A stretch of DNA of 64,000 nucleotides from Rubrobacter aplysinae (GTDB lineage Bacteria; Actinomycetota; Rubrobacteria; Rubrobacterales; Rubrobacteraceae), in assembly GCF_001029505.1 (NCBI RefSeq), contig NZ_LEKH01000004.1:137230-201229 (forward strand), read 5' to 3'. Positions 1-20,463 of the stretch are shown one piece after another. The position numbers were made by a program, and so were the translations under genes. The notes beneath the pieces were generated by a model. The model had not been told where the DNA came from. It made no database searches and was given only the letters and a program-made list of their open reading frames with translations. The number at the start of each line of letters is the position of its first letter. The stretch's first letter is position 1.

Positions 1-976
1 GTACGGGTCCGGGGTCTTCGGGCGACTCCAGAGCGTGGATACGGGCCATCCGGTTCATCAGGCCCACGGTGAGGTCCCGGAAGCGGACGGTAGGATCTCC
101 CGCTTCGAACGGGTACTTGACCTCCATGTAGGGGTTCTCCCCGCACAGATCGCCCGTCATGTCCCGGGGGATGAAGATCAGGGTCCCCCCGTGCCGGGAC
201 TCCCGGGCCACCGAGATGACGCGCTTTAGCTTGCGCTCAGCTATCCTGCGGTCGAGCTCCGGCTCCAGGGGAGGCCACGCCTCGCCCAGGGACCGGAGCG
301 CCTCCTCCCGCGCCTCCTCGTGCAGCGCGACGAACTCTGCTCTTAGGCCGTGAAACTCGGCCTGCAGCCACTCCGACTCGAAGAGATCCACCTGGGAGCC
401 GGTCAGCCTGCCGGCCTCTAGCTTGCCTACGAGCTCGTGACCCTTGCGGGCCTCTATGCTGCCGGGCGCTATGACGTGGACCGTGGGGACGGGGGGCAGC
501 GCGGCGCCAACCCTTCTACCTCCGTGGGAGTCCCGCATCCAGCGCGGCCCGGTCTGTAGCAGACCCCAGATCCTGAGCCCGTCCTCCTCATCCAGCCTTA
601 CCCCGATCATGGACCGGTGGAACTCGGCGGCGACCGAGAGGCGCTTCAGCTCCCGGGCGTTGAACGGCCTCGGGTCCGGGAACTCCAGCCTGTGCAGGCC
701 GTCCGGCGGACCTCCGGACGTGTCGAAAAGCCCAGGGTCGGCGAGGATAGCCCGGAAGGCGACCTCCTGTTCCTCTTCCCGCAGGAGGCTCGCCTGGTAA
801 CAGCCCGAGAGCAGCGCCCCGAGCACCGCCTCGTCGAGACCCGGGTGCCCGGGCCCGCAATACACGCCCTCTATCGGGGTCTCTCCCCAGTTCTCCCTTA
901 CGAACCGGGTGAGGTCTCCGGGGTATGCGTGCAGCGCTTCCCCGGCGAGCGGCGAGCGGTATTCGTCTATAGACAT
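1..976 (-). CDS. DACNV sensor-domain protein, C-terminus cut by window edge
   Basis: The reading frame opens with ATG at 974-976 and is still open at base 1, so about 325 residues are visible and the C-terminus is missing. The protein begins MSIDEYRSPL and is soluble, without signal or membrane segments. About 270 residues in it carries the segment RHGGTLIFIPRD, which resembles the HGGT-L-x-x-P signature of the DACNV sensor domain, a relative of the diadenylate cyclase DisA_N fold found in bacterial signalling proteins. I infer a ligand-sensing role but cannot name the ligand or say whether it has cyclase activity. A TATACT-like -10 box for this strand lies near 1018-1024. The gene is divergent from the LarA-like gene to its right. 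The family call is from motif memory only. Confidence 0.6.
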   Translation of the reverse strand, partial: MSIDEYRSPLAGEALHAYPGDLTRFVRENWGETPIEGVYCGPGHPGLDEAVLGALLSGCYQASLLREEEQEVAFRAILADPGLFDTSGGPPDGLHRLEFPDPRPFNARELKRLSVAAEFHRSMIGVRLDEEDGLRIWGLLQTGPRWMRDSHGGRRVGAALPPVPTVHVIAPGSIEARKGHELVGKLEAGRLTGSQVDLFESEWLQAEFHGLRAEFVALHEEAREEALRSLGEAWPPLEPELDRRIAERKLKRVISVARESRHGGTLIFIPRDMTGDLCGENPYMEVKYPFEAGDPTVRFRDLTVGLMNRMARIHALESPEDPGPV

Positions 977-10608: not shown

Positions 10609-12024
10609 ATGGCTAACGGTTTCTTTTCCAAGGAGCGGATAACCGTAGGGGGCGACTACAACCGGTGGGTAATACCGCCGGCGGCTCTGGCGGTGCATCT
10701 ATCCATAGGGCAGGTATACGCTTTCAGCGTCTTCAACGAGCCGCTTTCGCGGATAATCGGGGTGACGGAGCAGGCGCCGCAGGACTGGAGCCTGGCTACG
10801 CTGGGTTGGATCTTCAGCATCTCTATTCTGGTTCTCGGGCTTACGGCGTTTATCGGCGGGGCGTGGCTGGAGAAGGTCGGTCCGCGGACCACGATGTTCG
10901 CGGCTGCCTGTTCGTTCGGCGGCGGGTTCCTGGTCTCCGCGCTCGGCGTGGTTACGCACCAGCTCTGGTTGCTCTACTTCGGGTATGGTGTGCTCGGCGG
11001 TATCGGGCTCGGGCTGGCGTACGTGTCGCCGGTGTCGGCGCTTATCAAATGGTTCCCCGACCGCCGGGGTATGGCGACCGGCATGGCTATCATGGGCTTC
11101 GGCGGTGGCGCTCTCATAGGCGCGCCGCTGGCGGTTGCGCTGATGAACTTCTTTAGCAGCCAGAACTCGGTCGGCGTCGCGCCGACGTTCGTGGTGATGG
11201 GTTTGATCTACTTCGCCTCGATGACGCTCGGTGCCCTGACCATCCGGGTTCCGTCCGCGGACTGGAAGCCGGCCGGGTGGGAGCCGCCCGCAGCCTCGGA
11301 GCAGAGCGGCATGATCGCCACCAACGACGTGCACATAAACACGGCGCTCAAGACGCCGCAGTTCTGGCTCCTGTGGGCGGTGCTATGTCTGAACGTCACC
11401 GCCGGTATCGGGGTGCTCGGACAGGCCGCCGTCATGATCCAGGAGACCTTTGGCGGGGCCATCACGGCTGCTGCCGCCGCGGGGTTCGTTAGCCTACTGA
11501 GCATATTCAACATGCTCGGGCGCTTTCTGTGGTCCACGGCTTCGGACTACATAGGCCGCAAGAACACGTACCTCATCTTCTTCGGGCTGGGCGCCTTACT
11601 GTACGTGTCGGTCCCGATAGTCGGCAGCAGCATCGGAAGCCTGTTCCTGTTCGTGGCGGCTTTCTGCATCATCCTGACCATGTACGGCGGTGGGTTCTCC
11701 ACCATACCGGCCTACCTGGCCGACATATTCGGCACCCGGTACGTGGGCGGCATCCACGGCCGGCTCCTCACTGCGTGGTCCGCCGCGGGCATACTCGGGC
11801 CGGTGCTCGTGAACTATATCCGGGAGGCCCAGATAAACTCCGGGGTCGAGCCGGCAAACGCATACAACATAACCATGTTTATTATGGCTGGGCTTCTGGT
11901 CGTCGGCCTCATCTGTAACTCTCTGGTGAAGCCAGTGGACCCCAAGTACCACATGGACTCGGAGGAAGAGGAGCAGCGGGAGACGGTATCCAGCAGCACC
12001 AGCGGCCGTACCGCGGAAGCCTAG
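10609..12024 (+). CDS. OFA-family MFS transporter (oxalate/formate type)
   Basis: A 471-residue, 12-helix major facilitator. The early segment PPAALAVHLSIGQVYAFSVF and the LGWIFSISILVLGLTAF helix are characteristic of the oxalate:formate antiporter (OFA) group. The motif FPDRRGMATGMAIMGFGGGA lies in the helix 4-5 region and the cytoplasmic tail is acidic. In this context formate or a related small carboxylate is the likely substrate, since fdhF is divergent on the left and fdhD and formaldehyde dehydrogenase lie to the right. The specificity cannot be read from sequence. The ATG is preceded by AGGAAGGA at a longer than usual distance. A 50-residue partner gene follows 35 bp downstream. Confidence 0.88.
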   Translation: MANGFFSKERITVGGDYNRWVIPPAALAVHLSIGQVYAFSVFNEPLSRIIGVTEQAPQDWSLATLGWIFSISILVLGLTAFIGGAWLEKVGPRTTMFAAACSFGGGFLVSALGVVTHQLWLLYFGYGVLGGIGLGLAYVSPVSALIKWFPDRRGMATGMAIMGFGGGALIGAPLAVALMNFFSSQNSVGVAPTFVVMGLIYFASMTLGALTIRVPSADWKPAGWEPPAASEQSGMIATNDVHINTALKTPQFWLLWAVLCLNVTAGIGVLGQAAVMIQETFGGAITAAAAAGFVSLLSIFNMLGRFLWSTASDYIGRKNTYLIFFGLGALLYVSVPIVGSSIGSLFLFVAAFCIILTMYGGGFSTIPAYLADIFGTRYVGGIHGRLLTAWSAAGILGPVLVNYIREAQINSGVEPANAYNITMFIMAGLLVVGLICNSLVKPVDPKYHMDSEEEEQRETVSSSTSGRTAEA

Positions 12025-12059
12025 ACGGACCCTGGAGTCCCTAGAGAGGAGAGAATCCG

Positions 12060-12212
12060 GTGGCGCAAGAGCAGACGAGTCAACAGCAGGAGAGACACCC
12101 GGTGAGCAACAGTACGCCCCTGATCATACTGTTCTGGGCCTACGTGAGCATACCCCTGATCTGGGCGCTCTACAGGACCTTCGGGAACATCGCGGCCCTG
12201 TTTACGGGCTAG
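12060..12212 (+). CDS. Small single-helix subunit paired with the OFA transporter
   Basis: A 50-residue protein starting at GTG 12060-12062 behind GAGAGGAGAG. The first 20 residues are polar (VAQEQTSQQQERHPVSNSTP), followed by one hydrophobic helix of about 22 residues and the short tail FGNIAALFTG. Tiny proteins of this kind are found directly downstream of OFA transporters and are annotated as MFS transporter small subunits. The match here rests on position, size and the LFTG end. It probably sits beside the carrier in the membrane; its effect on transport is not known to me. Confidence 0.75.
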   Translation: MAQEQTSQQQERHPVSNSTPLIILFWAYVSIPLIWALYRTFGNIAALFTG

Positions 12213-12238
12213 CGCGGAGAGGGGGGAAGACGGAGGAT

Positions 12239-12261
12239 GGGCCGGCCGCAGTAGCCGGCCC
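12239..12261. terminator. Shared hairpin between the OFA operon and fdhD
   Basis: GGGCCGGC (12239-12246) pairs perfectly with GCCGGCCC (12254-12261) over a 7-nt loop. It lies 26 bp past the small-subunit stop and 5 bp before the fdhD stop, between convergent genes, so it can serve both directions. There is no long U-run. Confidence 0.55.
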
Positions 12262-12266
12262 GGCGT

Positions 12267-13139
12267 TTACCGGGGGGCTATCCTCTCATTACCGGAGTAT
12301 ACGTTGAAGCGTTCCCCGCGCAGGAAGCCCACCAGCGTCATCCCGAACTCGCGGGCCACGTCTGCGGCGAGGCTGCTGGGGGCCGAGATCGCGCACACCA
12401 CGGGCACCCCGGCGGTGAGACACTTCTGTAGTATCTCGAAACTCGACCGGCCGCTGACCATGATGATGTTCTCCGAGAGCGGCAGCCTGTTCTCGAGCAG
12501 CGCCCAGCCCACGAGCTTGTCCGTGGCGTTGTGCCGGCCCACGTCCTCCCGCAGCGCGACCAGCTCGCCGCCCGGGTCGAAGAGGGCGGCGGCGTGCAGG
12601 CCGCCCGTGGCGTCGAAGAGGCCCTGCGCCTCTCGCAGCCGGTCCGGGAGCCTGTAGATCGTCTCCGGCGAGACCTCCGGGCCGGGCGGTACCACCGGGC
12701 ACCCCCGGAGCTCTAGCTGCTCCAGGCTCGCCTTGCCGCAGACCCCGCAGGCGCTCGTGGTGTAGAAGTGACGTTCGAGCGCCGGCAGGTCATAGTCCCG
12801 GCTGCCGCCGGCGACCTCGACGTTGACGATGTTGTACTGTTGATCGGCGTCCACGTCGCGGTCCACACAGTAGCTGATCCTTCTTATCTCCGTCGGCGAG
12901 GACACGATACCCTCCCCGTACAGAAAGCCCGCCGCCAGCTCGAAGTCGTTGCCGGGCGTGCGCATGGTGACCGCCACGGTGCGGGTCTCGTCCGCGGTAA
13001 CGAGCCGGATCTCCATCGGTTCTTCCGTCGCCAGGACGTCGGACTTTAGCCTGGAACGCCCTTCCTCGACCGTGCGGATCCTCATCTTGGTCTTGCTGCC
13101 GCGCCGCGTTCTGCCCTGTGCGCCGGTCCCGATCTCCAC
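12267..13139 (-). CDS. fdhD: Formate dehydrogenase accessory sulfurtransferase FdhD
   Basis: A 290-residue FdhD protein. The conserved CGVCGK motif lies at 131-136, with C131 and C134 as the mobile cysteines that pass sulfur from a cysteine desulfurase (IscS) to the bis-MGD cofactor of formate dehydrogenase. Other family segments are TMRTPGNDFELAAGFLYGEG (58-77) and the late VGRHNATDKLVGWALL and SGRSSFEILQK. The first 15 residues are an Arg-rich extension. It lies between the two selenocysteine formate dehydrogenases and presumably serves both. It is separated from the formaldehyde dehydrogenase upstream by a terminator, so it has its own promoter in the gap 13140-13250. Confidence 0.96.
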   Translation of the reverse strand: MEIGTGAQGRTRRGSKTKMRIRTVEEGRSRLKSDVLATEEPMEIRLVTADETRTVAVTMRTPGNDFELAAGFLYGEGIVSSPTEIRRISYCVDRDVDADQQYNIVNVEVAGGSRDYDLPALERHFYTTSACGVCGKASLEQLELRGCPVVPPGPEVSPETIYRLPDRLREAQGLFDATGGLHAAALFDPGGELVALREDVGRHNATDKLVGWALLENRLPLSENIIMVSGRSSFEILQKCLTAGVPVVCAISAPSSLAADVAREFGMTLVGFLRGERFNVYSGNERIAPR

Positions 13140-13251
13140 CGCCTACCGCTCCTTCCGCTCGACGCTAGATACGGTCCACCCTATCGAACACGACTAATTG
13201 TAACCCCTGCCGGCCGGATGCCCGCCCGGCTAACACGGCCACACGAGCACG

Positions 13252-13281
13252 AAAAAGGAGGCCGGTCTGAAACCAGCCTCC
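13252..13281 (-). terminator. Rho-independent terminator after formaldehyde dehydrogenase
   Basis: GGAGGC (13257-13262) pairs with GCCTCC (13276-13281), and an inner GGT (13264-13266) pairs with ACC (13272-13274). Five A at 13252-13256 give a U-tract on the minus strand. It lies 26 bp beyond the stop of the gene it serves. Confidence 0.85.
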
Positions 13282-13307
13282 CTGGATACCCCGAGCCGTC
13301 TCCGCGT

Positions 13308-14519
13308 TTAGGAGATCATGCCGTGCGGGTCGAGGACGAACTTCTTGGCCACGCCGGAGTCGAACTGCTGGTAGCCGTCGGGGGCCTGATCCAGCGGTAG
13401 CACGGTGGCGTTGACCGCCTTGGCGATCTGGGCCTTGTCGTGCAGGATGCTCATCATCAGGCCGCGGTTGTACATCATCACGGGGCACTGGCCGGTGTGG
13501 AAAGAGTGGCTCTTCGCCCAGCCGAGGCCGAGGCGTACCTTGAGCGTGCCTTCCTCGGCGTCCGGGTCCGGCGCGCCCGGGTCGCCGGTCACGTACAGCC
13601 CCGGGATGCCGAGCTCACCGCCGGCGCGGGTGATGCTCATGATGTCGTTCAGTACCGTGGCGGGCTGCTCTTCTGCGTCCGCGCCGTGGCCGCGGGCCTC
13701 GAAGCCGACGGCGTCTACCGCGGAGTCCACCTCCGGGGTGCCCAGGATCTGCTCGATCATGTCTCCCGGTGAGCCCTGGGTCAGGTCAACGGTCTCGCAG
13801 CCGAAGGACCGGGCCTGCTCAAGGCGCTCGGGGATCATGTCGCCCACGATCACGACCGACGCGCCGAGTAGCTGGGCCGAGTGCGCCGCCGCGAGGCCGA
13901 CCGGACCCGCGCCCGCGACGTACACGGTCGAGCCGGTGGTCACGCCGGCCTTGTAGCAGCCGTGGTAGCCGGTCGGGAAGATGTCGCTGAGCATGGTGAG
14001 GTCCAGGATCTTCTCCAGCGCCTGATCCCGATCCGGAAACGGCAGCAGGTTGAAGTCCGCGAACGGGACCATCACGTAGTCGGCCTGACCGCCGGTCCAG
14101 CCGCCCATGTCAACGTAGCCGTAGGCCGAGCCAGCCCTCGCCGGGTTAACGTTCAGACAGATCCCCGTCTGGCGCTCCTTGCAGTTCCTACAGCGCCCGC
14201 AGGCGATGTTGAAGGGGACCGAGCAAATGTCGCCCTCCTTGATGAACTGTACGTCCTCGCCGGCCTCGACGACCTCGCCCGTGATCTCGTGTCCCAACGT
14301 CTGCCCGACCGGAGCGGTCGTCCGCCCGCGAACCATGTGCTGGTCCGAGCCGCAGATGTTGGTGGAGACTATCTTGAGTATCACGCCGTGCGGCGCCTTC
14401 TGGGTCCTCATGCCCATCGTGCTGGCTACGTCTTCCGGTACCTCTAACTTCGGGTAACCGATGTCCTCTACCGCCGTCTGCAGTGGACCCTTGTAGACGA
14501 CGCACCTGTTGTCAGCCAT
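13308..14519 (-). CDS. fdhA: Glutathione-independent formaldehyde dehydrogenase (zinc, NAD)
   Basis: A 403-residue zinc alcohol dehydrogenase-family enzyme closely resembling Pseudomonas putida FdhA. It oxidises formaldehyde to formate with bound NAD and needs no thiol cofactor. Catalytic zinc ligands are C56 (NICGSDQH) and H77-E78 (LGHEITGE). Structural zinc cysteines are C107, C110, C113 and C121. These lie 10 residues later than in the Pseudomonas enzyme. The Rossmann motif is GAGPVGLAAA. The segment AYGYVDMGGWTGGQADY is diagnostic for this subgroup. Its product is the substrate of both nearby formate dehydrogenases. It is transcribed away from the second formate dehydrogenase operon across a 530-bp gap and ends at a strong terminator. 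Confidence 0.93.
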   Translation of the reverse strand: MADNRCVVYKGPLQTAVEDIGYPKLEVPEDVASTMGMRTQKAPHGVILKIVSTNICGSDQHMVRGRTTAPVGQTLGHEITGEVVEAGEDVQFIKEGDICSVPFNIACGRCRNCKERQTGICLNVNPARAGSAYGYVDMGGWTGGQADYVMVPFADFNLLPFPDRDQALEKILDLTMLSDIFPTGYHGCYKAGVTTGSTVYVAGAGPVGLAAAHSAQLLGASVVIVGDMIPERLEQARSFGCETVDLTQGSPGDMIEQILGTPEVDSAVDAVGFEARGHGADAEEQPATVLNDIMSITRAGGELGIPGLYVTGDPGAPDPDAEEGTLKVRLGLGWAKSHSFHTGQCPVMMYNRGLMMSILHDKAQIAKAVNATVLPLDQAPDGYQQFDSGVAKKFVLDPHGMIS

Positions 14520-15052
14520 AAGCCCTTTCCCGTCCTATCCGTCCTAGATTGGGATTCTCGCTCATCCCGCCCGGAATAAGCATCCCGGACCCTTACTAGT
14601 AGACCCGCTAAAAGTCTCCTGGCCGTCCAGATATCCTCCTTCTATTCCTATACCCCTGGCCGTGTATACACGACGATATAACCATAGCAAAAGGCGTGTG
14701 CCCGCACAATCCATACGGAGTTTCCGAAATAAAAATCTGGATTATAGTGACGAATAACGGTCCGCATTGTAGTGTAGGGTCAGATAGCCAGAGGTCCCGT
14801 GAGCGCGGGGCGAGCCTCCGTCTCCAGGGTCCCGCCGGGCTGCACGGTAGCCGGTGTTTCCGGTGCTTGGATGAGCCTGGACAAGGTCGGCGGGGGGTTT
14901 AGCGGTCCTTGTGAAAGGCTAGAATCTAATGCGGAGGTCCAGGGCGCTGTGTGGAGCCTCTGGAGCCGTTACTTGGAGGCGGGGTCACGCGAAGGACTCG
15001 AAGGGGAGCTCGTACCCGGAAAATCCCCGGGAAAGCCGAGAAAGGAACTGGA
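14520..15052. other. 533-bp divergent gap and long leader of the formate dehydrogenase operon
   Basis: No convincing gene. It holds a perfect 12-bp palindrome CGTGTATACACG at 14661-14672 and a possible promoter with TATAGT near 14744-14750. If that promoter is used, the mRNA carries a 5' leader of roughly 300 nt rich in G+C and local hairpins, for example AGCCGG/CCGGTGCT near 14850 and CCCGG/CCCGGG near 15015. A leader this long is unusual here and could be a cofactor- or metal-responsive element, but I could not match it to a known riboswitch or to a selC tRNA. Confidence 0.5.
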
Positions 15053-18000
15053 TTGTTTCTAAAAGTCACGGAAGAGGAAGGGCTCTGGAAGAAGATCAAG
15101 AGCCACGTCGGCGTCAAGGTCGAGCATCCGGTAAGCTCCCAGACGCGGGAGCTCGGCCCGCGCATCCACGATGAGGGCGTGCAGAAGACCGAGAGCGTGT
15201 GCCCGTACTGCGCCGTCGGCTGCTCGACGCTCGTGTACCACCGCGACGGACGCATCATGGATATAGAGGGAAATCCCGACAGCCCCATAAACGCCGGGAC
15301 CCTGTGCCCCAAGGGCTCTGCCTCGCTCGGGATGCACGTCTCGCCCCACCGCTGGACCACCGTCAAGTATCGTAGGCCGTACTCCTCGGAGTGGGAAGAG
15401 CTCCCGCTGGAAGAGGCGATGGACATGATCGCCGCCCGCGTAAAGAAGGCCCGCGACGAGAACTGGCAGGAGGCCCAGGAGAGCGGCGAGCCGCTAAACC
15501 GCACGATGAGCATGGCCTCCATCGGCGGTGCGGCGATAGATAACGAGGAGAACTATCTAATAACCAAGCTGTTTCATAGCTTAGGGATGGTGCGGATTAC
15601 GAATCAGGCCCGAATATGACACTCTTCCACGGTGTCCGGTCTGGGCATCACGTACGGCAGGGGCGGGGCGACCACCTCCCTCAACGACCTGCAGAACTCT
15701 GACTGTGTACTGATAGAGGGCTCGAACATGGCCGAGGCCCACCCGGTCGGGTTCCGGCATCCCATGATCGCCAAGGAGAACGGGGCCAAGATCATCCACG
15801 TCGACCCGCGCTTCACGCGTACCTCGGCGATGGCGGACATCTACGCTCCCATAAGGCCCGGCACGGACATAGCCTTCCTCGGCGGCCTCATAAGCTACGT
15901 AATAGAGAACGAGCGGTACTTCGAGGAGTACGTAAGGGAGTACACCAACGCCCCGACCCTCATAACGGAAGACTACGAGGATATGGACGCCTCCGGCATC
16001 TTCGCCGGCTGGAACTCCGAGACGGGCAAGTACGACGAGAACTACTGGCGCTACGAGGGGATGCCGGTCACGCCGGCCGTCGGCGGCAGCGAGGAGGCGC
16101 TGACCGGCGAGGCGTTCACCGACCGCGTGGCGAGCTACGCCGAGAAGGACGGATTCCCCGAAGACGAGATGCTGCAGCACCCGCGCTCGGTGTTCCAGAT
16201 CCTCAAGCGCCACTACGAGAAGTACACCCCGGAGATGGTCGAGCGGATCACGGGCTGCCCGAAAGAGGCGTTCCTGAAGGTGGCCGAGACCATCTGCGAG
16301 AACTCTGGGCGCGACAAGACCACGGCGCTGTGCTACTCGGTCGGCTGGACCCACCACTCCAAGGGCTCGCAGCTGATCCGCACCGCCGCCATTTTGCAGC
16401 TCCTGCTCGGCAACATCGGGCGTCCCGGCGGCGGAATCCTGGCGTTGCGCGGCCACGCCACCATCCAGGGCTCGACCGACATAGCGACGCTTTACGACCT
16501 CTTGCCCGGCTACGTCGCCATGCCCGACGCCAACCGGGGCCACGAGACCTGGGAGGACTACGTTCAGGGAGAAGCGGCCCAGACCGGATGGTGGTCGGAG
16601 TTCCCGGCCTACGCGACGAGCATAATGAAGGCGTGGTACGGAGACGCCGCCCACTCCGGCAACGGCTACCTCTACGAGCACTTCCCGCGGCTGAACGGGG
16701 ATCACTCCTACTATCCCACGATCATGGACATGAAGAGCGGGAGCGTGAAGGGCTGCTTCGTGTTCGGGCAGAACTTCGCCGTTGGCGGCCCGCACGGAAA
16801 GCTCGCCCGGGACGCGATCCGCAATCTGGACTGGTTCGTCGTCCTCGACGCCTACCCGATAGAGACGAGCGAGGCGTGGAAGCTCGACGACGTGGATCCC
16901 GCCGAGGTCGGCACCGAGGTCTTCGCCATCCCCTCGGCGCTCGTGGCCGAGAAAGAGGGGAGCTTCACCCAGACCCAGCGCATGGTGCAGTGGCACGACA
17001 AGTCCGTGGACCCGCCGGACGACGCCAAGAGCGACGCCTGGTTCGTCTACAATCTCGGCCGGCGGCTAAAGGACCTTTACGCCGACTCCGGCGAGGAGCG
17101 CGACGACCTGATCCGGGCCATGACCTGGGACTACGGCGACGCCGACGGGGACGGCGAGCCCGAGCTCGAGGAAGTCTTGAAGGAGATCAACGGCTACAAG
17201 GTCTCCGACGGCGCGCCGCTAAACACGTTCCTGGAGCTGGAAGACGATGGATCTACTGCCTGTGGGGCCTGGATCTACTCGGGCGTATTCGCCGACGGTG
17301 TGAACCAGGCCCGCCGCCGCGAGACGGGTGAGTATCCCCACCTCGAATGGGGCTGGGCGTGGCCCGCAAACCGCCGCATCATCTACAATCGCGCCTCCGC
17401 CGACCCCAGGGGCAGGCCCTGGTCCGAGGAGAAGAAGCTCGTGTGGTGGGACGAGGAAGAGGAGAAGTGGACCGGCTACGACGTGCCCGACTTCCAGGCC
17501 ACAAAGCACCCGGACTACCGCCCGGACGTGGAGGCCCGGGGTCTCGAAGCCCTGCCCGGCAACGGGCCGTTCATCCTGAACGCCGACGGCAAGGGCTGGC
17601 TGTTTGCCCCGACCGGCCTCAAGGACGGGCCGCTGCCGGCCCACTACGAGCCGCTGGAGTCGCCGGTAAAGAATCTCCTCTACGAGCAGCAGTACGATCC
17701 CGTGGTCAAGCGCTTCGAGCGGCCGGATAACCCGTACAACACGCCAGAGAACCCCATGTACCCTTACGTCATCACGACGTACCGGCTTACCGAGCATCAT
17801 ACGACGGGCGCGATGTCGCGCTGGATCCCGTGGCTAAACGAGCTCCAGCCGGAGTCATTCTGTGAGATCTCGGCCGAGCTAGCCGGGGAGAAGGGTGTGG
17901 AGAACACCGACTGGGTTACGCTCTCCACGACCCGCGGTAAGGTCCACACCCGGGCGCTCGTCACCGACCGCATCCCGGTGTACGAGTTCGAGGGCAAGAG

Positions 18001-18163
18001 GCTCCACACCATCGGCCTGCCGTATCACTTCGGCCCGAACGGACCGTCGGACCTGCAGAAATCCGACATCGCGAACGACCTGATGCCGGTAAGCCTGGAG
18101 CCGAACGTCTCCATCCACGAGGCCAAAGCGTTCTCCTGCAACCTAGAGAAGGGGAAGGTGTGA
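15053..18163 (+). CDS. fdnG: Formate dehydrogenase alpha subunit (FdnG/FdoG type), selenocysteine
   Basis: A selenoprotein of about 1036 residues. The TGA at 15617-15619 encodes selenocysteine (residue 189) in NQARI-U-HSSTVSGLGITYG, the FdnG/FdoG motif. [4Fe-4S] ligands are C50, C53, C57 and C85 (CPYCAVGC, then GTLCPKG). The large insertions after residue 350 match the formate dehydrogenase-N/O alpha type (E. coli 1015-1016). The chosen start is TTG at 15053 with AAAGGA 7 nt upstream; the frame is open back to GTG 14951. Neither start gives a hydrophobic Tat signal, so the catalytic subunit probably faces the cytoplasm, unlike E. coli FdnG. It is followed, with overlapping codons, by an unknown protein, the Fe-S beta subunit and an NrfD subunit. 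Confidence 0.93.
15617..15649 (+). promoter_or_regulatory. bSECIS element of the second formate dehydrogenase
   Basis: After the UGA at 15617-15619 come 18 nt, then the loop GGUCU (15638-15642). The closing stem is GUGUCC (15632-15637) with GGGCAU (15643-15648), six pairs including two G-U. Loop sequence and UGA-to-loop distance are identical to the first formate dehydrogenase in this window, while the stem sequences differ, which argues for selection on structure. Confidence 0.85.
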
Positions 18164-18543
18164 GCGATCCGAGAGAAGGAGTGAGCCGCGATCCCCACAT
18201 AGCGGAGGCCGGGGGCCGCGCCGCCAACACGGGGCCGGATACCATACCGGGCAGCGCGACCGCCAGTTCCCAGACGAGCCGCCGGGAGTCCATGCACGGA
18301 CGGCTCATGGAGCTCGCGGTGTGGCTCTCCGAGCATCCAAAGGAGGCGCGAAAAAACCTCAAGGCCATCCGCCGGGGCAACCCCATAGATCCCGGGGTGT
18401 ACTACAACTCCGGGCTGCGCATGATCGAGCGCCTGTACCGCCCGCAGCACGTGGCGCTCGGCAACAAGATGCTCCGAATCTCCACCGACCCCGCCGCTCC
18501 CGTCGAGGAGATCCGGCGCAAGGTACTAGAAGGGAAGCGATAG
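18160..18543 (+). CDS. Uncharacterised protein inside the formate dehydrogenase operon
   Basis: A 127-residue protein whose GTG start overlaps the alpha-subunit stop by 4 bp, with AGGGGAAGG upstream. Its own stop overlaps the beta-subunit GTG by 1 bp (TAGTG), so translation of alpha, this protein and beta is tightly coupled. Residues 1-40 are polar and probably disordered. Residues 45-127 are predicted helical and basic (ARKNLKAIRRGNPIDPG; YYNSGLRMIERLYRPQHVAL). There are no cysteines, signal or membrane segment. I do not recognise a family. Position suggests an assembly factor, linker or extra subunit specific to this type of formate dehydrogenase; that is inference. Confidence 0.85.
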   Translation: MSDPREGVSRDPHIAEAGGRAANTGPDTIPGSATASSQTSRRESMHGRLMELAVWLSEHPKEARKNLKAIRRGNPIDPGVYYNSGLRMIERLYRPQHVALGNKMLRISTDPAAPVEEIRRKVLEGKR

Positions 18544-19379
18544 TGGCGACGGGATTCCTGACCGACACGACCGTCTGCATCGGCTGCAAGGCCTGCGAGG
18601 TCGCCTGTAAGCAGTGGAACCAGCTACCCGCCGACGGCTACGAGTTTACCGGCGACTCCTACGACAACACCAAGCAGCTCTCCGGCACCACCTGGCGCCA
18701 CGTCGCCTTCGTCGAGAACCCCAAAAAGAAGAAGCTGACCGGCGACGTTGACCTCACCGCGCTGGCCGAGGACGTGCGTGAAGAGCTGCCCGGCGGCGCG
18801 GAGCTCGACGGCCTCGGGCGCTGGACGTTCATGAGCGACGTGTGCAAGCACTGTGTGGAGGCTCCCTGCCAGCAGGCGTGTCCGACGGGTGCGATCATCC
18901 GCAACGAGTTCGACAACGTCTTTATCCAGCCCGACGTCTGCAACGGCTGCGGCTACTGCGTCCCCGCCTGTCCCTACGGCGTCATTACCTCGGTGCCGCA
19001 CGACGGCCGCGCCTTCAAGTGCACCCTTTGCTACGACCGGCAGAAGGACGGCCTCGAACCGGCCTGCGCAAAGGCCTGCCCGACCAACTCCATCATGTTC
19101 GGCGAGGTCGAGGAGTTGCAGAAGCTCGCCGACGAGCGCGTCGAGGCGCTCAAGGCAAAGGGCTACACGGAGGCCTACGTCTACGGCACCCCCGAGGTCG
19201 GCGGCACGGGCGGCATCGGCGGCAACAACTCCAAGTTCATTCTCATGGACGAGCCGGAGACCTACAACCTGCCGCGCCACCCCTACATGCCTCACGACAA
19301 GGTCGCGCCGGCCGTCGCCGCCAGCGCCGTCGCTGCCGGGGTGCTATCCGCCGTCGTCGCGTTCGCGTTCAGAAAGTAG
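18543..19379 (+). CDS. fdnH: Formate dehydrogenase beta subunit, four-cluster ferredoxin
   Basis: A 278-residue electron-transfer subunit starting at GTG 18543, which overlaps the preceding stop. Four cysteine groups bind [4Fe-4S] clusters: CIGCKACEVACKQWN near the N-terminus, CKHCVEAPCQQACP, CNGCGYCVPACP, and CTLCYDRQKDG with a later CAKACP. This is the HybA/FdnH/DmsB layout. One hydrophobic helix near the C-terminus (AAGVLSAVVAFAF) ends in Arg-Lys and would anchor the subunit to the membrane, as in FdnH. It passes electrons from the alpha subunit to the NrfD-type membrane subunit encoded 7 bp downstream. Confidence 0.93.
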   Translation: MATGFLTDTTVCIGCKACEVACKQWNQLPADGYEFTGDSYDNTKQLSGTTWRHVAFVENPKKKKLTGDVDLTALAEDVREELPGGAELDGLGRWTFMSDVCKHCVEAPCQQACPTGAIIRNEFDNVFIQPDVCNGCGYCVPACPYGVITSVPHDGRAFKCTLCYDRQKDGLEPACAKACPTNSIMFGEVEELQKLADERVEALKAKGYTEAYVYGTPEVGGTGGIGGNNSKFILMDEPETYNLPRHPYMPHDKVAPAVAASAVAAGVLSAVVAFAFRK

Positions 19380-19386
19380 GGGAGAG

Positions 19387-20463
19387 ATGAGCGACGCCAC
19401 GCAGGATACGCTTGGATTGCAGGGCGAGCCCGGCCGCAACGGCAGTAGCGCCGAGACCTCTCACCACACCAAGGAGGACGAGAAGCGCCAGCAAAAAGAG
19501 TCCGGCTACTACGGTATCCCCCCGATAAAGAAGCCGCACTGGACGTGGCAGGTGCCGCTGTACCTGTGGCTCGGCGGGATTGGCGCGGGGTCGCATCTCA
19601 TTGCGACGCTGGTGCGATTCATGAAGGACGGAGACCCGGCGCTGCTGCGGGCGAGCCGGTACACGACGCTCGTGACCATGATCCTCTCGCCGATACTCCT
19701 GATCTGGGACCTCGGGCGTCCGGAGCGTTTCCTGAACATGCTGCGCATCGTCAAGCTGCGCTCCCCGATGTCCACCGGGAGCTGGTCCATCTCCATCTTC
19801 GGTGCCATGAGCGGGCTCATAGCCACCCATCAGGCCGCCGAAGATGGTCTGCTCGGGCGAGATAACCTCGTCGCGCGCGCCGCGAAGCGGTTCATCCCGG
19901 ATCGGGTACTCACGGTAGTAACGTTGCCGTTCGGGCTGTACGTCGGGGCTTACACGGGGATACTCCTCATAGCTACCAGCGTGCCGATGTGGGCGAAGAA
20001 CTGGATGCTCATGGGTCCGACGTTCCTCTCCTCGGGTTTCTCCAACGCTCTCTCTGCGATGTCCCTGATCCTGAACCTCGGACGCTGGGGCGAGCACAGA
20101 ACCCACTCCATGCTCCGCCGGGCCGAGAAGGCCACGCTCGTTATCGAGGCCGCGCTCGTGCTCGGCTCGCTCTACAAGATGGGCCGCTGGGGGAGCCCGC
20201 TGCGCTCCCGGAGGCTCGCGCCAACGTTCTTCGGCGGCTCGCTGCTGGGAGGCATACTGGTGCCGTTCGCGCTGCTCTCCGGTCTATTCGGCGAGCAGAG
20301 CCGCAAGAAATCCATGCTCGCCTCGGCCCTGGTGCTCGTCGGTGGCCTGCTCTTCCGCTTCGACATGGTGCTGGGCGGCAAGATGTCCGCCGACGACCCC
20401 GAGGCGACCTTTACCTTCGCCCAGCCGGAGAGAGACTCCGGGGAGCGAGGGACGACGCCGTAG
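19387..20463 (+). CDS. nrfD: NrfD/PsrC-type membrane subunit of formate dehydrogenase
   Basis: A 358-residue protein with a polar N-terminal 50 residues followed by about eight transmembrane helices. The segments PLYLWLGGIGAGSHL, IWDLGRPERFLNML and SPMSTGSWSISIFG are NrfD/PsrC hallmarks (quinone-interacting membrane subunit without heme). It replaces the cytochrome b gamma subunit (FdnI) of enterobacterial formate dehydrogenase-N, so electrons from formate probably go to menaquinone through a heme-free path. ATG start with GGGGAGAG upstream, 7 bp after the beta stop. It is the last gene of the operon and converges on the cupin gene 15 bp away. Confidence 0.9.
   Translation: MSDATQDTLGLQGEPGRNGSSAETSHHTKEDEKRQQKESGYYGIPPIKKPHWTWQVPLYLWLGGIGAGSHLIATLVRFMKDGDPALLRASRYTTLVTMILSPILLIWDLGRPERFLNMLRIVKLRSPMSTGSWSISIFGAMSGLIATHQAAEDGLLGRDNLVARAAKRFIPDRVLTVVTLPFGLYVGAYTGILLIATSVPMWAKNWMLMGPTFLSSGFSNALSAMSLILNLGRWGEHRTHSMLRRAEKATLVIEAALVLGSLYKMGRWGSPLRSRRLAPTFFGGSLLGGILVPFALLSGLFGEQSRKKSMLASALVLVGGLLFRFDMVLGGKMSADDPEATFTFAQPERDSGERGTTP

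Follow-up and report, generated by a model that had tools for sequence, protein, structure and literature searches.

A lineage-specific small protein encoded between the alpha and beta genes of an NrfD-anchored formate dehydrogenase in Rubrobacteraceae

Respiratory formate dehydrogenases (FDHs) are usually described with three subunits, and the NrfD-anchored formate dehydrogenases are little studied. A three-subunit actinobacterial selenocysteine FDH with an NrfD gamma subunit (NF041513 alpha) has been described from Rhodococcus equi 103S (PMC13332983). As in the window analysed here, a stretch of 64,000 nucleotides from Rubrobacter aplysinae, the R. equi-type enzyme has its alpha, [4Fe-4S] beta and NrfD gamma subunits encoded in one operon, its alpha is of the same family, and no export signal is recognised. 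Unlike the group of Rubrobacteraceae enzymes that includes the one in the window (clade A, see below), it has three subunits only, with nothing between the alpha and beta genes and no X-like gene mentioned (PMC13332983), and its alpha carries, at the C-terminus, a tail missing from clade A alpha. Escherichia coli FDH-N (FdnGHI, PDB code 1KQF) shares with the window a selenocysteine alpha (TIGR01553) and a hydrophobic helix at the C-terminus of beta, but it exports alpha by the Tat pathway, has a four-helix, non-NrfD gamma, and has no equivalent of the small protein, here called X, that is encoded between alpha and beta in the window (general knowledge of the enzyme, and PMC13332983).

The FDH operon and the intervening gene

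Judged by its genes, the operon encodes an NrfD-anchored formate dehydrogenase: alpha scores above the curated cut-offs of both NF041513 (1477 bits for the whole gene, cut-off 1400) and TIGR01553 (839.8 bits, cut-off 814.2), and the genes for beta and an NrfD gamma are adjacent (Table 1). The alpha gene begins at a GTG between 14951 and 15065, the exact one not being fixed; because alpha reads through an in-frame TGA, the gene must start upstream of 15632. This TGA, at which a plain list of open reading frames splits the gene, is best read as selenocysteine, since the genome contains a tRNA-Sec with anticodon tca elsewhere (G000:C5:185230-185319). One in-frame TGA is also found in most full-length relatives of alpha. 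No twin-arginine signal was recognised by eye in alpha. Beta matches Fer4_11 (1.8e-23), stays under the cut-off of TIGR01582, and has a C-terminal hydrophobic helix at residues 258–276. Upstream of the operon (window 10609–14519) lie genes for an MFS carboxylate transporter (NF049980, L-lactate MFS, 341 bits), for FdhD and for a formaldehyde dehydrogenase, the last of them divergent from the FDH operon, and the presence of these genes next to the operon suggests a formaldehyde/formate oxidation module.

Table 1. Coordinates of the FDH operon and neighbouring features in the window, and of genes inserted at related loci
Feature	Position	Strand	Remarks
FdhD, sulfurtransferase for FDH maturation	12267..13139	-	NF001943, 313.6 bits, cut-off 269
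Glutathione-independent formaldehyde dehydrogenase	13308..14519	-	TIGR02819, 721 bits, cut-off 637
FDH alpha, molybdopterin catalytic subunit, clade A	14951..18163	+	NF041513, TIGR01553
In-frame TGA of alpha, predicted selenocysteine	15617..15619	+	NQARIUHSSTV
Protein X	18160..18543	+	127 aa, orphan family; GTG start 18160, TAG stop 18541-18543
Core of X	residues about 42-126		N-terminus variable, disordered
FDH beta, [4Fe-4S] subunit	18543..19379	+	278 aa, 16 Cys, Fer4_11
Clade-A loop of beta, residues about 63-92	18729..18818	+	KKLTGDVDLTALAEDVREELPGGAELDGLG
FDH gamma, NrfD-type membrane subunit	19390..20463	+	PF03916, 1.1e-26
170-aa inserted protein	L005 1035-1547; L017 about 1010-1486; similar loci		between alpha and X; L005 start overlaps alpha stop
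HNH-endonuclease-like gene	L004 6743-7510		between FDH beta and gamma; PF01844, just under cut-off

The end of the alpha frame (stop TGA, 18161–18163) shares 4 bp, GTGA, with the start of X, and the GTG of beta at 18543 overlaps the stop codon of X by 1 bp; purine-rich, Shine-Dalgarno-like stretches precede the start of X (GAGAAGGGGAAGG) and that of beta (AGAAGGGAAG). A preliminary description of this DNA had placed X at 18160–18543 with the same two overlaps, and re-reading of the frames agrees with it. Homologues are found at 26 places, flanked by the same genes and overlapping in the same style, and pairwise dN/dS in the core of X is 0.09–0.19 for close pairs. From these comparisons, X is a real gene and more than a chance frame, and one on which purifying selection (dN/dS about 0.1–0.2) acts.

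Family searches, predicted fold and charge of protein X

No paper on X was found, and the papers that concern Rubrobacter and formate dehydrogenase, as far as their accessible text goes, name both only in passing. Neither Pfam nor NCBIfam contains a family that matches X at E≤10, and there is no match in PHROGs. The preliminary description had set X apart from FdhE, FdhD and ferredoxins, in keeping with these searches, and its statement that X lacks cysteines and a membrane segment also holds, since the cysteine count is zero and the maximum 19-residue hydropathy is 0.22. The FdhE profile PF04216 is likewise absent from the matches of the 26 X relatives to Pfam at E≤1. PF11390 (FdsD) is unmatched by X at E≤10 and by the relatives at E≤1, a comparison of Pfam profiles and not of the folds directly, and the Pfam profiles for NarJ/TorD and NapD are unmatched by X and the 26 relatives. 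CxxC metal-binding motifs of the FdhE type are absent, X having no cysteine and its relatives no conserved one. Because conserved Cys or His ligands are missing, a redox or metal-binding role is disfavoured, and a redox role in particular looks unlikely. The best profile match in a sequence search of the PDB, a dehydratase of solved structure (E 0.04), is not credible.

The alignment of the 26 members (A1) contains 15 invariant columns, 12 of them in the second half (R71, P78, G79, Y81, N83, G85, M88, R91, Q96, L100, G101, and P111), and the N-terminal residues preceding the core are poorly conserved, with free variation in both sequence and length. AlphaFold2 run on A1 predicts a disordered N-terminus followed by an alpha-helix, a three-stranded beta-meander and a further helix (helices 34–58, 60–66 and 115–124; strands 79–83, 88–92 and 104–108), with pLDDT about 90 in the core and a pTM of 0.59. 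The C-terminal half had been described as helical beforehand; a helix is indeed predicted there, but beside the meander, and the half is not purely helical. A second prediction, in which X of R. marinus was joined to beta as a read-through fusion, gives the same order of elements for X, with a pLDDT of 42 for the fusion and no model for the beta part. The X model returned no Foldseek match at E≤0.001 (best E 2.0) and no credible VIA-align match (best Z 3.0), where a weak or missing fold match does not amount to evidence of a new fold. X is basic (pI 10.2; core 10.5), and alpha (pI 4.8, net charge –52) and beta (pI 5.0, net charge –10) are acidic.

Distribution of X and the two FDH lineages

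A single-sequence search located relatives of X at 26 places in 24 of 39 Rubrobacteraceae genomes, and none in 60 other Actinomycetota. The A1 profile recovered the same 26 places from 396 actinomycetotal genomes drawn with Rubrobacteraceae included, and no relatives among the roughly 360 other Actinomycetota sampled; two matches elsewhere in this draw (E about 0.06–0.07) are at chance level. Nothing credible was obtained with the profile in 24 genomes of the class that holds some of the nearest FDH relatives. The genome searches covered Actinomycetota and also plasmids, where matches were at chance level (E at least 1) and, of two regions opened, one is unannotated and the other contains no FDH genes. 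Beyond Actinomycetota, coverage came from the plasmids and from one single-sequence pattern scan of a species-level genome collection, which detects close relatives only.

All 26 places lie between FDH alpha and beta, with the NrfD gamma gene downstream wherever the sequence extends that far. Most of them overlap alpha by 4 bp (GTGA), those of the R. marinus group by 1 bp, and the start of beta is almost always no more than about 10 bp away from the stop of X. X keeps its place beside beta even where another gene separates alpha from X (L005, L017) or beta from gamma (L004). The first of these inserted genes, found in one subgroup and several genomes, codes for a protein that contains hydrophobic stretches and matches nothing in Pfam, and the second is the HNH-endonuclease-like gene (Table 1). 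The preliminary description had asked whether the homologues always lie between alpha and beta with an NrfD gamma, and all those found are so arranged where gamma is reached; a scatter of homologues away from FDH, which it took as the contrary pattern, was not seen. Its suggestion that X may be a structural subunit or an assembly chaperone of NrfD-type FDHs is supported as regards the exclusive linkage to FDH (26/26), but not as regards generality, X being confined to one Rubrobacteraceae clade.

The alpha subunits of Rubrobacteraceae split cleanly into clade A, about 70–79% identical to the window alpha among full-length members, and lineage B, at 53–58%. FDH is present in all near-complete genomes of the family, yet FdhE (PF04216) is found in none of the 39. 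X accompanies clade A alpha in 27 of 27 cases where the contig passes the alpha stop; in the 27th (G018) X is truncated by the end of the contig, which still includes its start (VNGAREMMEQELM), and two further contigs that end within clade A alpha (G015, G024) are outside this count. No X accompanies lineage B (G002, G008, G011, G014, G019, G022, G030, and the second copy in G025), and a genome-wide search with the A1 profile found none in the genomes that have lineage B only. G025 carries both lineages, with X only beside its clade A copy, and thus offers a natural comparison, within one cell, of A with X and B without it. Its two lineages are on contigs C18 and C446 (L017, L094) of a fragmented assembly with about 3% contamination. 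A tree of 36 alphas recovers clade A as one monophyletic group (100/100; stem of 0.51 changes per site) and places lineage B apart from it, nested among other actinobacterial FDHs. In the simplest history, X was gained once along the stem of clade A, and no loss is observed; this is an argument from parsimony, not a proof.

Absence of X extends from lineage B to 19 other actinobacterial loci and to the annotated NrfD-type FDH operons of Thermomicrobium and Chelatococcus. A six-frame scan with the X profile of three FDH loci from outside the phylum (Thermomicrobium, Chelatococcus, and the unannotated locus of Indioceanicola) found none either (best E 0.17), and the small proteins encoded close to the FDH of Thermomicrobium and of Chelatococcus were rejected as relatives (E at least 0.26 within that small set). 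Given this distribution, X is a lineage-specific accessory of one FDH clade and not a general part of NrfD-type FDHs; since other enzymes of this class exist without it, X is not needed by the class as such.

Clade A subunits also differ from their relatives in what they lack. Alpha is without the C-terminal tail of about 9–71 residues that is present in relatives, and lineage B beta has an N-terminal extension, roughly 46 residues long, that clade A beta does not have and that is mostly missing in the nearest relatives of clade A too. The two absences would fit an origin of X as a broken-off piece of the enzyme, the tail or the extension having become a separate gene, and a short motif is similar by eye (YNxGTGMVDRIYxPQRVALGHRMF compared with YNIEGRETPETRPLIPLGQRYY). 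Such an origin is nevertheless very improbable: profile searches with X are not significant against the beta extensions (best E 0.56; best for lineage B 0.86) or the alpha tails (E at least 0.69), and in most of the closest relatives of clade A the beta extension is absent altogether.

Clade A beta has, in addition, an acidic loop (Table 1), conserved across the clade with the consensus GDVDLxALAxxVxExLPxxAELDxLG, at a position that is empty or nearly so in the nearest relatives and taken up by varied inserts in other actinobacteria. Because X is basic, alpha and beta are acidic, the loop is specific to clade A and the alpha tail is missing, the loop is a reasonable candidate for the docking site of X, and the alpha surface near the missing tail an alternative one.

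Possible role of X and comparison with known systems

Protein X is probably either an extra part of the clade A FDH or a dedicated assembly helper used by this enzyme only. We favour the first, and give about even chances to X being a small accessory (delta-like) subunit at the alpha–beta interface of one Sec-containing, NrfD-anchored FDH clade of Rubrobacteraceae, because X is permanently beside beta, has been co-inherited without loss, and is complementary in charge to alpha and beta. X is, in this reading, translated in step with both subunits of an enzyme that probably faces the cytoplasm, given that alpha carries no recognised export signal. We infer that X binds the enzyme and is a permanent member of the complex, most likely located at or near the alpha–beta interface, where its conserved basic core may stabilise the pair; it would carry no redox centre of its own. 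More tentatively, X may found a new family, as a fourth, interface subunit acquired once along the stem of clade A, at the same time as alpha changed rapidly and beta received its new acidic loop, and inseparable from the enzyme since.

Counting against this choice, a dedicated assembly factor would explain the gene order and the co-inheritance just as well; the NrfD-type FDHs without X and the poorly conserved N-terminus of varying length also weigh against it. An assembly factor would bind newly synthesised alpha, alone or with beta, while cofactors are inserted and the subunits pair, and then leave the finished enzyme, and we regard it as a real, if lesser, possibility. The small size of X, the position of its gene and the translational coupling all agree with it, and the basic core could bind the acidic alpha. 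PF04216 matches no Rubrobacteraceae genome (0/39, with a positive E. coli FdhE control), and without FdhE an alternative aid to maturation is conceivable. However, the lineage B genomes are also without a PF04216 match and yet have no X, so X is not a simple replacement for FdhE, and by Pfam it is unlike NarJ/TorD, NapD, FdhE and FdhD. A regulatory or targeting protein outside both assembly and the core complex, tuning activity or joining FDH to, e.g., the divergent formaldehyde dehydrogenase, would suit the setting of the operon, near FdhD in a formaldehyde-to-formate module, and the disordered N-terminus of variable length could serve as a linker. This we consider improbable, as it is the folded core of X that is conserved, and X tracks alpha and beta alone.

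The linkage to FDH also suggests what a protein family without other annotation may do. Clade A with X and lineage B without it form a natural comparison within one bacterial family, through which one can test directly how a new part is added to an old multi-subunit enzyme and what X confers (stability, oxygen tolerance or faster assembly).

Among known proteins, the assembly factors of the FdhE and NarJ/TorD classes resemble X in a possible role in maturation, but have no sequence match to it, and X, whose predicted fold has a beta-meander, is at most about half as long as they usually are. The known fold of NarJ/TorD is all-helical; the X model consists of a helix, three strands and a helix, and its structural matches are not significant (Foldseek) or reach Z≤3.0 (VIA). 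FdsD, the delta subunit of NAD-dependent FDH (PF11390), has no profile match with X, belongs to a different, soluble type of FDH, and differs in gene position. Like X, FdsD is small, has no redox centre, and is encoded within an FDH operon.
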